This document shows positions 4,034 through 8,291 of a DNA stretch of 10,033 bases, in pieces. The DNA is from an uncultured Lachnospiraceae bacterium (GTDB lineage: Bacteria > Bacillota_A > Clostridia > Lachnospirales > Lachnospiraceae): positions 1 through 10,033 of the forward strand of contig CACXDR010000103.1 in NCBI GenBank assembly GCA_902766415.1, in the 5' to 3' direction. The translations under genes were made by a program, and so were the position numbers. The notes below the pieces were generated by a model, which searched no databases, was not told the DNA's origin, and saw only the letters and a program-made list of their open reading frames with translations. The stretch's first letter is position 1. Each line of letters opens with the position of its first letter.

Positions 4034-4711
4034 TTACGCAAGTTCCACCCACATCGTGACCGGCGCGCTGTCTGCCTCCTCCATAAACAGCGGGACCGCA
4101 GCCGCGGAAACGATCCGGTCTGCCTCCAGCCCCTCAAAGCTGACATCCTCGATGATGGGCACGGCCTGGTTCTGATGAAAGACGCCCAGCATGATCTGAT
4201 GCGCTTTCCCGCCCTCCTCCGGCATCTGCGGCGACGCAAGGGAAATGAAATCCAGCGCGATGGCCTTGAGATCCTCCCTGAAATGATCCATCAGAAACTC
4301 CGCCGCAGAGCAGCTCACATACGGTCCCCTTCTGGAATAGCATTCCGGATCCTCCGCTCTCTTCTTGGCGAATCCCGTGCGCAGCATAAGAAGATCCGAT
4401 TTCCGGATCTGATCCGTATATGGTTCCAGATCCTCTTTCGTGATCGCCTCCCCCGCCTCTTTATGCACGTCGATCAGGAGCGGACGCTCGAAGAAAAACC
4501 GGTCAAACGGTTCCTCGGTCAGCCTCTTCCCGGAATCATTATAGTGCCTGGCCCCGTCCATATGGGAACCGAAATGATTGAACAGCGTGATCATATACTG
4601 GTTGCACCTGTCGCCTTTACTGATCGACGTAAAAGGTGAAACGGTTATTTTGGGATTTCCCGGCCATCCGGCGGCTGATGCGGTCAGTTCGTACGAGATC
4701 CTTTTTTTCAT
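4034..4711 (-). CDS. Cyclase-family metal-dependent hydrolase (KynB-like fold)
   Basis: A 225-residue protein of the cyclase/arylformamidase family (PF04199). The signature HxGTHxDxPxH appears in variant form as H46-F-G-S-H50-M-D52-G-A-R-H56, so all metal-ligand positions are kept while the Thr is Ser and the Pro is Ala. A later stretch, KAHQIMLGVFHQNQAVPIIE, fits the region that completes the site. Members include kynurenine formamidase and various amidases and lactonases; there are no kynurenine-pathway genes here, so the substrate is open. The start at 4711 has a GAGGGG about 10 bases upstream. The gap to the EF-hand gene is 108 bases, without a clear promoter or terminator. Confidence 0.85.
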   Translation of the reverse strand: MKKRISYELTASAAGWPGNPKITVSPFTSISKGDRCNQYMITLFNHFGSHMDGARHYNDSGKRLTEEPFDRFFFERPLLIDVHKEAGEAITKEDLEPYTDQIRKSDLLMLRTGFAKKRAEDPECYSRRGPYVSCSAAEFLMDHFREDLKAIALDFISLASPQMPEEGGKAHQIMLGVFHQNQAVPIIEDVSFEGLEADRIVSAAAVPLFMEEADSAPVTMWVELA

Positions 4712-5059: not shown

Positions 5060-5391
5060 GCTGTTATTCCCTCCGGTACCGCTGTCTGCGAACGGCACTC
5101 CAGGACAAATACCCGGAGTCCGTCAAGCGTCATTGTTTTTACTTCCCTGTAGCAGTCATCCTTCGTCCATGCCGGATTCCGGCCTGCCAGATACTTTCTT
5201 GCTTTCTTCTCAAGTCTTTTTCGTTCACACTGCAGCCAGTAAGAATGCTCCAGCTTCTGGAGATAGGGGCATGCCTTCTCCACACATGAATGCTCTTTTA
5301 CCGCTGCCGCGCTAAGGTAACCTTTATGAATGGCATTATGACAAATGCCGCAGGGACTCGAACTCATTCTGCGAAAACTGATCTGTTTCAT
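5056..5391 (-). CDS. Cys-rich protein of unknown function, putative zinc-binding
   Basis: A 111-residue protein, unrecognised by name. Its N-terminal half has a metal-site-like pattern: C14-G-I-C17-H18, His22, His34-S-C36 and C41-P-Y. The middle is strongly basic and helical (ERKRLEKKARKYLAGRN), and the C-terminal part looks like a small mixed strand/helix segment. No signal peptide or membrane helix is visible. Two starts are possible: 5391 with AGGAGG at 9 bases, used here, or 5397, for which the same site is only 3 bases away. Its stop overlaps the start of the EF-hand gene, suggesting the two small proteins work together. Confidence 0.72.
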   Translation of the reverse strand: MKQISFRRMSSSPCGICHNAIHKGYLSAAAVKEHSCVEKACPYLQKLEHSYWLQCERKRLEKKARKYLAGRNPAWTKDDCYREVKTMTLDGLRVFVLECRSQTAVPEGITA

Positions 5392-5481
5392 GGACATGTT
5401 CCTCCTCTCCGGATATCGTTCTACGATCATTCTACGGAAAGGAATGCCCTGAAATCTTCTCCGCCGGGCCGAATATATGTT

Positions 5482-5506
5482 CCTTCCTCAGGTCTTCCTG
5501 AGAAGG
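5482..5506. other. Hairpin across the methyltransferase stop codon
   Basis: CCTT and CTCAGG pair with CCTGAG and AAGG around a TCTT loop, with one bulged C. The stop codon (5488-5490) is inside the stem. No U-tract follows on the minus strand, so read-through into the Cys-rich gene 96 bases on is likely. Confidence 0.4.
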
Positions 5507-6072
5507 GCATTCAGCCACTTTTCATTCTCCCTGCCCGGGCGCGCGTCGCCGGTGATCCACTGCTCTTCGACCTCCAGTCCCGGGAATGCGCGGAGCAGTG
5601 CCCCGAAGCTTTCCTCTGTCATGTCCGTGAAGTACCTGCCGTTCCGTTCTCCTTCAAAGGTCCCGTACTTAAAGGACACATACAGGATCCCCCCATGCTT
5701 CAGGGCGCGTTCCATCCTGCGGAATATCTCCGGCAGCTCCGATGACGGCGCGTGCAGGATCGAGGCGCATGCCCAGATGCCGTCGTAGATCCCGGTCTCG
5801 TCAAGCTCTGTAAAAAGCAGTCTCCGGACCTGGAGCCCGGTATACTGAGACGCCTCCCTGCAGATCTCCTCCGAGCCGTCGGCCGCCGTTACCGTAAAGC
5901 CTTCGGAAAGGAAGTATTTCGCGTCACGTCCGGACCCGCAGCCAAAGTCCAGGATGTGACCACCGGCCCTCATCCGGCCGAGGAATCTGTCCTGGATCGA
6001 TGCCATATTTACAGACTGCGTCTGTGAGACAAACTGCCGCGCGTTGTCATTGTAATAATCTAACGTACTCAT
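5488..6072 (-). CDS. Class I SAM-dependent methyltransferase
   Basis: A 194-residue Rossmann-fold methyltransferase. Motif I is I40-L-D-F-G-C-G-S-G48 and the acidic residue after strand 2 is Asp65 (VTAADGSEE). GIWACASILHAP follows as the family's motif IV/post region, with LKHGGILYVSFKYG and a WLNALLRK end. The N-terminus TLDYYNDNARQFVSQT is typical of a widespread small stand-alone methyltransferase group with unknown substrates. The start at 6072 has GGGAG 6 bases upstream; the in-frame Met at 6120 has no ribosome site and overlaps a -10-like box. It is the first clear gene after the DUF2828 terminator and may lead the set with the Cys-rich and EF-hand genes. Confidence 0.92.
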   Translation of the reverse strand: MSTLDYYNDNARQFVSQTQSVNMASIQDRFLGRMRAGGHILDFGCGSGRDAKYFLSEGFTVTAADGSEEICREASQYTGLQVRRLLFTELDETGIYDGIWACASILHAPSSELPEIFRRMERALKHGGILYVSFKYGTFEGERNGRYFTDMTEESFGALLRAFPGLEVEEQWITGDARPGRENEKWLNALLRKT

Positions 6073-6327: not shown

Positions 6328-7794
6328 TCACGCCACCCGGACCGCATCGTACCTTTCGGAGTTGATGATCCGTTCCATGGCTTCCACGGGGGTCATGCCG
6401 GCGCACTGCATGACCTGGCGGAACACTGCGGCGGACTGGCCGCCCGCGAGCTGCACGCCTGCGCGGCTTCCGTCCGCGTGGAAGACGTCATGGCGGGAGG
6501 CCACGTTCCAGAAGATGACGTTCGGGATCCGGTAGCCGCAGGAACGGAATTCCCGGGCCATCCGGCCGTAGAAGGTCCAGTCCTCGTCGCCGCACCAGTC
6601 GATCTCCATGTCGGAGATGACAATGATCGACTTCGGCAGCTCTTCGGGGGACACATGGTTCCTGACCGCGATCTCCAGCACGTTCCGGAAGGCGGCATGG
6701 AGGTTCGTGTTGTTCCCCCAGTCGTCCATGTTGATGCCGGCAAGCTTCTGCGCGAGGGTCTCCCCCGTCAGCCTGTGGACGCGGGAGGTCCCGGAGAATG
6801 ACATGAACAGGTCATGGTACGGGCCGATGTTCCTCTCCGCGAAGTACACGGCCAGTCCCAGGGCGGTGGCCAGGGGCCGTCCGCGCATGGAGCCGGAGGT
6901 GTCCGCGATCACAATGGCTCCGGTCCCGGGCTCCACGTAGTCGGGGAGCTGGCGCCACTGGGCTTCAAGAGCATCGTCCTCTGTGAATGCCGGCCGGAAG
7001 TCCATGTTCATGACCTTTTCCACGATGTCGTACGGGTACAGGGTCCCGGAGTGGATGGTCTCCTCCCCGGCCGCTGCCCTCCGGACAAAGTCGCTGTAGC
7101 GTTCCGCGTCATGCCTGAGGAAGGCGTTCCGGTAGATCATCATGGCCCGCGACGGGACGGCGGAGTACCGGATCCTGTCCCACTGTCCCGCAGACATGAG
7201 TGCCTCCACCACCCCGATCTGCTTCCGCATGGCCCGCACCAGGCGCTTGAACTCGTATACAGAGTAGCCGAGCCTCCGCGCCGTCAGGATGCCGAGCCTC
7301 CGGGTAGCTTCCGAGGAAGCATCAGCAGTCTTGATCCACTTTGCCAGAAGGGAGACGGCATTCCCCTCCGCGAGGTTTCTGCGGTCCTCCTCGAACTGCC
7401 GCTTCATGGCAGCCCACATTTCATGCTCCATGGGCGTGCCGATGAGGCAGTACAGGTCATCGTAGCGCCCGTACACGCCGATGAGGTCCAGATTCAGGCG
7501 CAGCGCTTCGGGATGGCGCTCCGCCATGTACTTAAGGATCGCGCGGAAGGTCCGGCGCTCTCCCAGACCGCCGCGCACATCACGCGCGTAGAACACGGTC
7601 TTCGCCGCGAACAGCGGGTCCGCCTTCCATGCCTCAGAGAAAAGACGCAGGATCCGCGCTTCCTCCGCCCCGCGAAGGGCGCCGGCCGTGCTGAAGAAAT
7701 CGAGCCGCGCGTCGCCCGTGGTGTTCAGCGCCACAGCTCCGTTTTCAGTTCTTGTAAATGCGGCATTCTTCGCTGCCGCCTCGGCGAAATTCAT
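6328..7794 (-). CDS. DUF2828-type vWA protein with Ro60-like architecture
   Basis: A 488-residue protein. Residues 17-34 (ENGAVALNTTGDARLDFF), 67-83 (VFYARDVRGGLGERRTF), Y108-GRYDDL and 213-229 (VPSRAMMIYRNAFLRHD) are signatures I associate with DUF2828 (PF11443): a helical, probably HEAT-like N-terminal region. A von Willebrand A domain follows from about 292, with a complete MIDAS: D298-T-S300-G-S302, Thr363 (NNTN) and Asp395 (ISDMEID). Ro60/Rsr proteins have the same order, a helical ring then vWA, and bind Y RNAs; this protein lacks recognisable TROVE motifs, so similarity is architectural. The start at 7794 has AGGAGG at 7 bases. A tRNA-like RNA structure lies just upstream, and a U-tract terminator follows. 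It is probably a soluble RNA- or protein-binding factor. Confidence 0.82.
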   Translation of the reverse strand: MNFAEAAAKNAAFTRTENGAVALNTTGDARLDFFSTAGALRGAEEARILRLFSEAWKADPLFAAKTVFYARDVRGGLGERRTFRAILKYMAERHPEALRLNLDLIGVYGRYDDLYCLIGTPMEHEMWAAMKRQFEEDRRNLAEGNAVSLLAKWIKTADASSEATRRLGILTARRLGYSVYEFKRLVRAMRKQIGVVEALMSAGQWDRIRYSAVPSRAMMIYRNAFLRHDAERYSDFVRRAAAGEETIHSGTLYPYDIVEKVMNMDFRPAFTEDDALEAQWRQLPDYVEPGTGAIVIADTSGSMRGRPLATALGLAVYFAERNIGPYHDLFMSFSGTSRVHRLTGETLAQKLAGINMDDWGNNTNLHAAFRNVLEIAVRNHVSPEELPKSIIVISDMEIDWCGDEDWTFYGRMAREFRSCGYRIPNVIFWNVASRHDVFHADGSRAGVQLAGGQSAAVFRQVMQCAGMTPVEAMERIINSERYDAVRVA

Positions 7795-7826: not shown

Positions 7827-7926
7827 ATGACCCTTTTGTCCTGCGGATTCGAACCGCCTTCAGATACTGCCGCATCTGTCCTGCCAGAAAAGAATGATCT
7901 GCTGTCAGGGTCACAGTTTTCAGGAC
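7827..7926 (-). ncRNA. tRNA-like structured RNA upstream of the DUF2828 gene
   Basis: On the minus strand, in order: a 5' closing arm (GTGACCC, 7914-7908); a D-arm-like hairpin (TGACAG/CTGGCA with one mismatch, 7907-7882); an anticodon-arm-like hairpin with a 5-bp stem CAGAT/ATCTG and 8-base loop (7878-7861); a T-arm-like hairpin GCGG-TTCGAAT-CCGC (7857-7843); and a 3' closing arm GGGTCAT (7833-7827). An alternative closure pairs GTCCT (7926-7922) with AGGAC (7842-7838) directly against the T-arm, as in true tRNA. There is no GG in the D loop, no CCA and no standard acceptor stem, so it is not a working tRNA. Bacterial Y RNAs (YrlA) are tRNA mimics next to Rsr genes; that parallel is inference. 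It may be a free RNA or part of the mRNA leader. Confidence 0.6.
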
Positions 7927-7980
7927 GCGTTTTTTTCACATTTTTACTATGTCGGATGAAGTGCTGCTGTCAGCGTCCCT
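7922..7980 (-). other. Second stem module and possible promoter before the tRNA-like RNA
   Basis: On the minus strand GGGACGC (7979-7973) pairs with GCGTCCT (7928-7922), enclosing a small GCTG/CAGC hairpin and an ACAT/ATGT hairpin. The 14-mer at 7977-7964 repeats at 7912-7899 with one change. The same stretch contains CTGACA (7973-7968), 5 of 6 to a -35, with weak -10 choices at 7951-7946 (16-base gap) or 7949-7944 (18-base gap). It could thus be a promoter for the RNA, a structured leader, or both. Confidence 0.35.
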
Positions 7981-7994
7981 GAAGATGATCGGTC

Positions 7995-8240
7995 TCAGGC
8001 GCACATGTCCTTGCGGACACGTACGACGATGATCTCGTCCATGGTGACGTCCAGCATGACTGCCAGGATCACCAGGTTGTCGATCGTGGGCAGCGCGGTC
8101 CCGTGGATCCACTTGTAGATCGCCTGAGGGGTCGCGAAGCCGAATACCTTCTGCATGTCCCTTACGGACAGCCCTGCCTGCTGCCTCAGCCTGTCGATGT
8201 TGCGACCGGTCGCGGCAGTGTCAATGAAGGGAAACTCCAT
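7995..8240 (-). CDS. Small XRE-family helix-turn-helix regulator
   Basis: An 81-residue protein that is almost entirely an HTH domain (ATGRNIDRLRQQAGLSVRDM at 10-29, then the recognition helix region FATPQAIYKWIHG at 35-47). LPTIDNLVILAVMLDVTMDEIIV follows. The pattern MEFP-ID--ATG-NI--LR---GLSVRD is common in Lachnospiraceae and other Clostridia as a stand-alone small regulator; its targets are generally unknown to me. The start at 8240 has GGAGG 9 bases upstream; the in-frame Met at 8288 gives only a low-complexity basic extension. The gene lies between two structured RNA regions, and no terminator separates it from the tRNA-like RNA and DUF2828 gene, so cotranscription is likely. It may control this locus. 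Confidence 0.87.
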   Translation of the reverse strand: MEFPFIDTAATGRNIDRLRQQAGLSVRDMQKVFGFATPQAIYKWIHGTALPTIDNLVILAVMLDVTMDEIIVVRVRKDMCA

Positions 8241-8254
8241 GGTTTTATTCCTCC

Positions 8255-8281
8255 TTTTTCTGCTGCGTTTTTTCTGCTGTG
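8255..8281. repeat. Two tandem 13-mers before the XRE start
   Basis: TTTTTCTGCTGCG (8255-8267) and TTTTTCTGCTGTG (8269-8281) differ at one base. On the minus strand they form the A-rich leader just before the XRE ribosome site. A TTGACA (-35 consensus) lies at 8288-8283, but no -10 stands at usable distance from it. Confidence 0.5.
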
Positions 8282-8291
8282 CTGTCAATAG

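Follow-up and report, generated by a model that had tools for sequence, protein, structure and literature searches.

Candidate Y-type RNA partners of a DUF2828 Ro60-like protein and their modular tRNA-like relatives in gut bacteria and phages

The pairing of Ro60 with YrlA RNA, the mimicry of tRNA by YrlA and their repair operon are established, and Chen 2014 reportedly describes more than 250 species of bacteria and phages in which a Y RNA lies close to Ro60. According to passages of PMC8394870, the basal stem of YrlA tethers Rsr, the bacterial Ro60 orthologue, and its tRNA-like domain binds PNPase; passages of Hughes et al. 2020 (PMC7790460) propose that this domain competes with an anticodon nuclease. 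Phage proteins annotated as Ro-like appear in parts of PMC12714340, PMC7824862 (jumbo phages with TROVE) and PMC7765460. Here we analyse a DNA stretch of 10,033 nucleotides (nt) from an uncultured Lachnospiraceae bacterium (contig CACXDR010000103.1; hereafter the window), in which two tandem structured RNA elements, A and B, stand on the minus strand directly before the ribosome site of a DUF2828 gene; their family recurs in other gut bacteria and in phages. Judged from sequence comparison and a structural model, the window probably encodes two small Y-type noncoding RNAs that are dedicated partners of the adjacent DUF2828 Ro60-like ring.

Two tandem elements and their neighbouring gene

Both elements begin with the 5′ strand of a 7-bp end stem, followed by two nucleotides (N2) and a short core.
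6328-7794, minus strand: DUF2828/DUF7788 gene, 488 amino acids (PF11443, E 7.5e-41; PF25043, E 1.3e-33)
7979-7921, minus strand: element A (class GGGA...TCCTG), found by the stem rule described below and by model R3
7979-7973 with 7928-7922, minus strand: 7-bp end stem of element A, assigned by the rule
7970-7964, minus strand: ACAGCAG of element A, preceded by N2 (TG)
7914-7826, minus strand: element B (class GTGA...TCATG), from model R2 and the fold of the unit
7914-7908 with 7833-7827, minus strand: 7-bp end stem of element B, GTGACCC with GGGTCAT
7905-7899, minus strand: ACAGCAG of element B, preceded by N2 (TG)
7878-7861, minus strand: hairpin of element B
7857-7843, minus strand: T-arm-like hairpin of element B, GCGG-TTCGAAT-CCGC, read from the sequence

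Element A has the layout GGGACGC-TG-ACAGCAG-payload-GCGTCCT-G, its short payload including a weak hairpin and being followed by an A-rich stretch before the 3′ strand and the final G; element B has the layout GTGACCC-TG-ACAGCAG-payload-GGGTCAT-G. When cut at its stem ends, element B folds with this stem (-29.9 kcal/mol, z -2.44, equalled by 4 of 200 shuffles). Element A also folds with its own stem, with weaker support (z -1.60, 17 of 200 shuffles as good). Two covariance models built with the window excluded recovered the elements, at E-values that are rough according to the tool itself: R2, from 24 other elements, finds element B at 52.6 bits (E 5.5e-11), and R3, from 40 others, finds element A at 35.7 bits (E 1.5e-8), each being the sole match of its model in the window at E≤1 (10,033 bases, both strands). 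A further model, R1, gives a single weak match at 7838-7956 (15.4 bits, E 0.019), which we take as a partial match spanning both elements. The area of elements A and B has no Rfam match up to E 10. The two elements contain one T-arm and simple hairpins, with no D-arm, closed acceptor or full tRNA fold, and no canonical anticodon loop is present in their sequence.

The original prediction placed a single tRNA-like RNA at 7827-7926 of the minus strand. This region is structured and carries a tRNA-like T-arm, and the hairpins and the GCGG-TTCGAAT-CCGC arm before the DUF2828 ribosome site are present as described, inside element B; the span itself, however, cuts across two RNAs. Taken alone, the 100-nt span does adopt the fold drawn for it (-31.2 kcal/mol, z -1.77, 7 of 200 shuffles as good), but the closing stem has to be abandoned: its 5′ strand, GTCCT (7926-7922), belongs to the 3′ end of element A, and its 3′ strand, AGGAC (7842-7838), lies inside element B. 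We rejected this 5-bp stem as a chance pairing across the two elements, complete in 2 of 26 tandem pairs including the window; the second complete case is L162, which repeats L003, and in L023 the complement is near-complete. A true tRNA was correctly discounted, as ARAGORN reports no tRNA gene in the window, and comparison with the Rfam tRNA and YrlA models gives no match to either in the window up to E 10. The earlier observation identified the right kind of feature but misplaced its limits, and the results support its interpretation, which stands and grows.

The DUF2828 protein of the window carries a predicted Ro60-like ring and a vWA domain with a string of the metal ion-dependent adhesion site type, DTSGS, at residues 298-302, and it matches phrog_850 (RNA-binding protein) at E 4.2e-119. 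Its AlphaFold model (predicted local distance difference test score 84.8) matches Ro/TROVE structures: in a structure search with VIA-align the first 10 rows are all Ro/TROVE chains, with 381-404 residues aligned at 10-16% identity, and the rows under them are mostly vWA-domain proteins, judged by title. The order of a TROVE-type ring followed by a vWA domain is seen on this predicted model. Pfam TROVE (PF05731) is not among the families of the protein at E 0.001, which are PF11443, PF25043 and VWA_2. A protein search gave 6,318 DUF2828 relatives at E≤1e-20 among 8,000 scored. In the literature searched, DUF2828 is named in plant studies, judged by title.

A module conserved in shape and tied to DUF2828

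An alignment of 12 relatives was used to fetch 58 bacterial loci (48 of them labelled Lachnospiraceae) and 52 viral contig loci. The module was first spotted by eye in upstream DNA and then tested on 88 non-redundant loci, window included, drawn from the 105 with at least 100 nt upstream. ACAGCAA occurs 159 times in 51.9 kb of upstream DNA versus twice on the reverse strand; elsewhere in the same loci there are 19 occurrences in 183.7 kb farther upstream and 62 in 209.5 kb downstream. Of 181 ACAGCA sites, 110 have a downstream complement, scoring at least 6.5, to the heptamer that lies two positions upstream of the site, versus 4.8% of random positions. With a stem score of at least 6, a linear element is present in 67 of the 88 loci, a score that random positions reach in 18%. 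Of the 131 linear elements counted in loci L001-L110, 115 are on the strand of the gene and no more than 700 nt upstream, and six, in four loci, lie downstream of it, a count to be read with the knowledge that the rule has some chance matches. Clear elements downstream of the gene are found in mycobacteriophage LeBron (three) and in a Staphylococcus phage (three). Phage elements form arrays among tRNA genes.

In all, 207 distinct linear elements were gathered under a rule that itself demands a stem score of at least 6.5 followed by G and fixes CAGC. They share one circular order: 5′ strand, N2, ACAGCAA (or AG at the end), payload, often an A-rich stretch, 3′ strand. The set holds 74 different 5′ strands, with at least four pair types at every stem position; the last 3′ stem base is U in 183 of 207 (G-U in 135, A-U in 48), and within the rule A precedes CAGC in 187. 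All 43 multi-element loci carry at least two different stems, so the stem letters are not what is conserved. Since variation within a class is small, the evidence for the stem comes from comparison across classes. Stem conservation and covariation at homologous genes, one of the checks proposed with the original prediction, came out in its favour: the stems are kept and covary. By sequence comparison, the module is conserved in shape while its stem letters change, and it is tied to DUF2828.

The spacing was examined at 99 ACAGCAA sites from 38 loci outside the making of the rule. At gaps of 0 to 8 nt, 14, 40, 63, 17, 12, 9, 5, 1 and 5 sites pair, respectively, gaps 0, 1 and 3 sharing most of their stem with gap 2. 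Run over 44 other loci, R3 gave 27 matches at E≤0.1, none of them in the six TROVE loci of this set.

The link to the gene was approached from both the protein and the RNA. By tblastn, DUF2828 relatives are present in 674 of 50,697 phage records, and among ten named phage loci (L119-L128) nine have clear elements. In a protein-led sample of 299 bacterial genomes of one family, PF11443 was found in 30, and 28 of these loci have elements (26 of 28 among fresh loci, L162 and L163 repeating earlier ones). Rule matches around the gene start number 56 on the strand of the gene versus 2 on the other, and inside the genes 3 forward and 1 reverse; many of the stems, such as AAGACGC/GCGTCTT and CAGACGC/GCGTCTG, are unlike those of the window. 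Conversely, a protein-blind, RNA-led scan of viral contigs with three exact patterns returned 35 distinct records, some of them already among the first 52 viral loci, and PF11443 is present in 29 of the 35 (7/8 and 22/27). The six records lacking it are 5.4 to 55 kb long and may be fragments.

Payloads, topologies and surroundings

T-arm-like payloads occur in 46 of the 207 linear elements, compared with a mean of 1.3 and a maximum of 5 in 50 mononucleotide shuffles. Payloads resembling an anticodon arm (5-bp arm, 7-nt loop; T-loop types excluded) occur in 55 (50 shuffles: mean 2.2, maximum 7), TTT being the commonest anticodon-type triplet (12 of 55). Many payloads resemble neither. In single folds of L003 and L005, CAGC of the core pairs with an upstream GCUG; judged by eye and uncounted, this pairing is not general in alignment A3. 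At L186 1291-1425 the payload of a rule match is GC-rich, unusually long at about 110 nt and without evident likeness to tRNA.

Three topologies, all with the circular order given above, can be told apart by where the RNA ends. Form I ends at the 7-bp stem, here called the docking stem after its proposed role, and its payload has zero to two arms; two such elements are present in the window. Form II also ends at the docking stem, its payload comprising a T-arm, a loop-closed acceptor and a D-arm, which is the YrlA layout:
L119 (LeBron), 4486-4607: form II
L125 (EFDG1), 2395-2516 and about 2581-2699: form II
L121 (Felix O1-type), 5389-5514: form II

Form III, the tRNA-ended chimera, is the most unusual part of the family. 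It ends at a 7-bp acceptor and has a D-arm and a T-arm of the ordinary tRNA type, and the docking stem, now a short-loop hairpin followed by N2-ACAGCAA, replaces the anticodon arm. Circular permutation converts form II into form III and vice versa. From 91 candidates with hairpin and T-arm we retained 86 distinct sequences in 55 loci, some of them near-copies. In an alignment of 56 of the 86, hand-picked for spread, two-sided changes are seen at 22 of the 23 pairs; the covariation score is 0.836, versus 0.215 for shuffles (none of 500 as high) and no more than 0.158 for slid alignments. The figure of 97.6% paired cells is inflated by the pairing-based choice of rows, which less easily explains the two-sided changes. 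A conserved 5-bp anticodon stem was considered and dropped as weak: 10 of 56 rows keep at least 4.5 of its 5 pairs (shuffles: mean 0.8, maximum 4). Because so few rows keep this stem, the anticodon arm is taken to be mostly replaced in the chimeras.

Existing tools treat the chimeras unevenly. In the loci tested with Rfam they are named plain tRNA or go unmatched, and the window elements are unmatched; 10 of 14 form III sequences (six loci) pass the Rfam tRNA cut-off, for example L003 2679-2791 at 49.0 bits. ARAGORN calls one of 19 (12 loci), L069 2714-2809, as tRNA-SeC. R1 at E 1e-4 matches ordinary tRNAs in 299 of 299 genomes and cannot by itself separate chimeras from tRNAs. At 50 bits or more, a cut-off set after the list was seen (73-nt matches reach 47.8 among the matches listed), it finds 12 genomes, at least two of which (G010, G297) hold training loci; eleven of these genomes belong to the 30 with PF11443, and in each of the eleven the best match lies within 1 kb of the PF11443 match.

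In some relatives rtcB lies near DUF2828. By tblastn of the flanks this is so in 11 of 88 bacterial loci (6 of the 58 fetched first and 5 of the 30 protein-led ones) and in none of the 52 first-set viral loci; it also lies by DUF2828 in Listeria phage P100. Pfam confirms three rtcB cases in all, two of them bacterial.
L001 4526-5734: rtcB-like gene near DUF2828 (tblastn); likewise in L025, L026, L028, L029, L042, L170, L173, L177, L178 and L179

The window has no rtcB, as a tblastn search with P100 RtcB gives only a 46-residue match at E 0.38, and its elements sit beside ordinary metabolic genes. The same strand carries a helix-turn-helix gene (Cro/C1-type) at 7995-8288, whose end is separated from element A by 15 bases. 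All other Rfam matches in the window are under their family cut-offs; one of them, to HIV_FS2 at an inverted repeat (1-28), is at chance level (E about 3). Several phage loci have tRNA genes close by. The contig of L003 (1-5843), binned as Lachnospiraceae, has 18 tRNA genes around its DUF2828 locus and resembles a tRNA-rich phage rather than a host chromosome. In Listeria phage P100, a ROOL RNA match of 86 bits (Rfam cut-off 99.1) lies at L120 1426-1977, about 1 kb before the DUF2828 gene.

Interpretation and relation to known Ro and Y RNA systems

By analogy with the end stem of YrlA on Rsr, the 7-bp stem with ACAGCAA would be a docking site for the ring. What lies inside the stem varies and would be a payload that can be swapped, often imitating parts of tRNA. 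Among the relatives this payload is an arm of the anticodon type, a T-arm, the two together, neither of them or a permuted tRNA; in other relatives the whole RNA is a tRNA body with a docking hairpin. With less certainty, the docked tRNA-like part might bring the ring to enzymes acting on tRNA or its broken forms (RtcB ligase, nucleases, modification enzymes), or, as proposed for YrlA, might occupy such enzymes as a decoy. We also put forward, tentatively, a broader view in which DUF2828 proteins would stand at the centre of a modular set of RNA tools. A single docking stem (7 bp plus ACAGCAA) would be combined with interchangeable tRNA parts, and the RNA ends would have shifted from docking stem to acceptor stem, the same ring being carried by mini Y RNAs or by tRNA bodies in which the usual anticodon arm is missing. 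Enzymes of tRNA processing would mature the chimeras that end like a tRNA, and tRNA would be guarded or rebuilt under nuclease attack in phages and gut bacteria.

Several results weigh against a dedicated RNA partner of a Ro60-like ring. DUF2828 sequence profiles find no Ro60 chain, so that kinship with Ro60 rests on the predicted fold. Linear elements with a stem of at least 6 are missing within 600 nt in 21 of the 88 loci, several of which hold chimeras (the hairpin form) or variant cores. Two of the 30 protein-led loci have no element (L175 has none near the start, and the only rule match of L177 is in coding sequence and was uncounted), Vibrio phage ValKK3 (L122) has no clear one, and at E 0.1 R3 detects elements in no more than 17 of the 38 fresh DUF2828 loci. 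Chance matches to the rule also occur, for example inside genes and once each in TROVE loci L199 and L202. Within a class the outer stem is near-invariant (6 of 7 pairs never vary in class B and 4 of 7 in class A), two of five covariation measures in class A are no better than shuffles, and alignment rows were picked by pairing, which inflates the paired percentage. The YrlA family RF02553 stays under its cut-off (69 bits) in the 23 sources searched, with 44.9 bits at best and no match in the window up to E 10. Finally, genome G168 has the best chimera (101 bits), and DUF2828 was not found there.

Two of these loci deserve a description of their own. At L122 2928-3053, ACAGCAA stands directly before the DUF2828 start of ValKK3, but a clearly pairing strand is missing; this phage may have RNAs of another kind, or encode them at another place. 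The G168 chimera is at L204 about 4091-4206 (contig C13 42090-42205); the gene may have been lost or fall in an assembly gap, or the RNA may serve another protein.

We considered other explanations of the same structures. They could form a leader of the DUF2828 mRNA that acts in cis and lets the protein itself, or some other factor, regulate DUF2828 expression, a role that would be compatible with that of a partner RNA. The window elements immediately precede the ribosome site on the strand of the gene, and 115 of 131 elements lie within 700 nt upstream, which fits a leader; elements downstream of the gene (six in four loci of L001-L110, LeBron and the Staphylococcus phage), phage arrays among tRNA genes and the many elements with whole tRNA bodies do not, and the sole promoter-like site of a promoter and terminator scan, weak and not informative, falls inside element A. 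We consider a leader improbable. That decayed tRNA genes or mobile repeats lie near the gene by chance was already disfavoured: tRNA-like sequence is clear and in many copies, and some loci are within tRNA arrays, yet the stems covary, unlike stems occur within one locus and the link to the gene holds in the protein-blind scan, which leaves this explanation very little credit.

The payloads might instead be decoys for anticodon nucleases or tRNA-cutting defences, with DUF2828 merely stabilising or presenting them. Here the anticodon-type arms of 55 of 207 linear elements, far above shuffles and with TTT commonest, the frequency of the DUF2828 family in tRNA-carrying phages and the competition proposed in passages of Hughes et al. 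2020 (PMC7790460) have to be set against chimeras mostly lacking an anticodon arm, window elements with no canonical anticodon loop and the persistence of elements beside ordinary metabolic genes, as in the window. We regard this reading as possible but doubtful. A DUF2828 protein with a tRNA-like partner RNA, in the manner of TROVE and Y RNA, as originally suggested, is supported by covariation, the link from RNA to gene, the predicted Ro60 fold, the YrlA layout in phages and the rtcB neighbours.

Thousands of predicted proteins contain DUF2828, a domain whose function is unknown, and a predicted Ro60 fold together with a partner RNA bearing a clear docking signature would make that function testable. 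The two circular permutations, with ends at the docking stem or at the acceptor, offer a natural experiment on recognition by Ro-type rings. If the payloads act on tRNA damage, a phage and bacterial system of tRNA protection would have been missed by present annotation.

No description of the ACAGCAA module, the single-arm elements or the tRNA-ended chimeras was found in the literature searched; the set of Chen 2014 may include some phage forms. Mycobacteriophage cluster L proteins annotated as Ro-like RNA binding proteins (phrog_850) are relatives of the window protein by tblastn, but in such phages only the protein is annotated: the LeBron record has no feature over its three elements, missing annotation being judged on nine of ten phage records (the tenth carries no annotation). 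TROVE loci of the same phylum (six, in 6 of 299 genomes, a small comparison) show no element array and no R3 match; they contain three sub-threshold YrlA matches, and the rule matches in L199 and L202 are single and chance-like.

In passages of PMC7790460 the Salmonella rsr-yrlBA-rtcBA operon brings together a Ro-like gene, tRNA-like RNAs and RtcB, as some relatives of our locus do, whereas the window itself has no rtcB. Like YrlA, the window RNAs are predicted to pair their ends into a stem and adjoin a Ro-type gene; unlike it, they have N2-ACAGCAA beside a 7-bp stem, which is absent from the YrlA consensus, and lack D-arm and acceptor. Phage relatives come closer, carrying T-arm, loop-closed acceptor and D-arm in YrlA order. 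Below its cut-off, RF02553 matches L119 (39.8 bits, E 2.5e-5) and L125 (44.9 bits, E 8.7e-7, and 34.2 bits, E 0.0011), the sub-threshold matches in the EFDG1 and LeBron loci ranging from E 8.7e-7 to 0.05; the same Rfam search gives no YrlA match in L121. The system had been called parallel to TROVE and Y RNA; the analogy holds, and the phage forms tie it to YrlA more closely than that word conveys.
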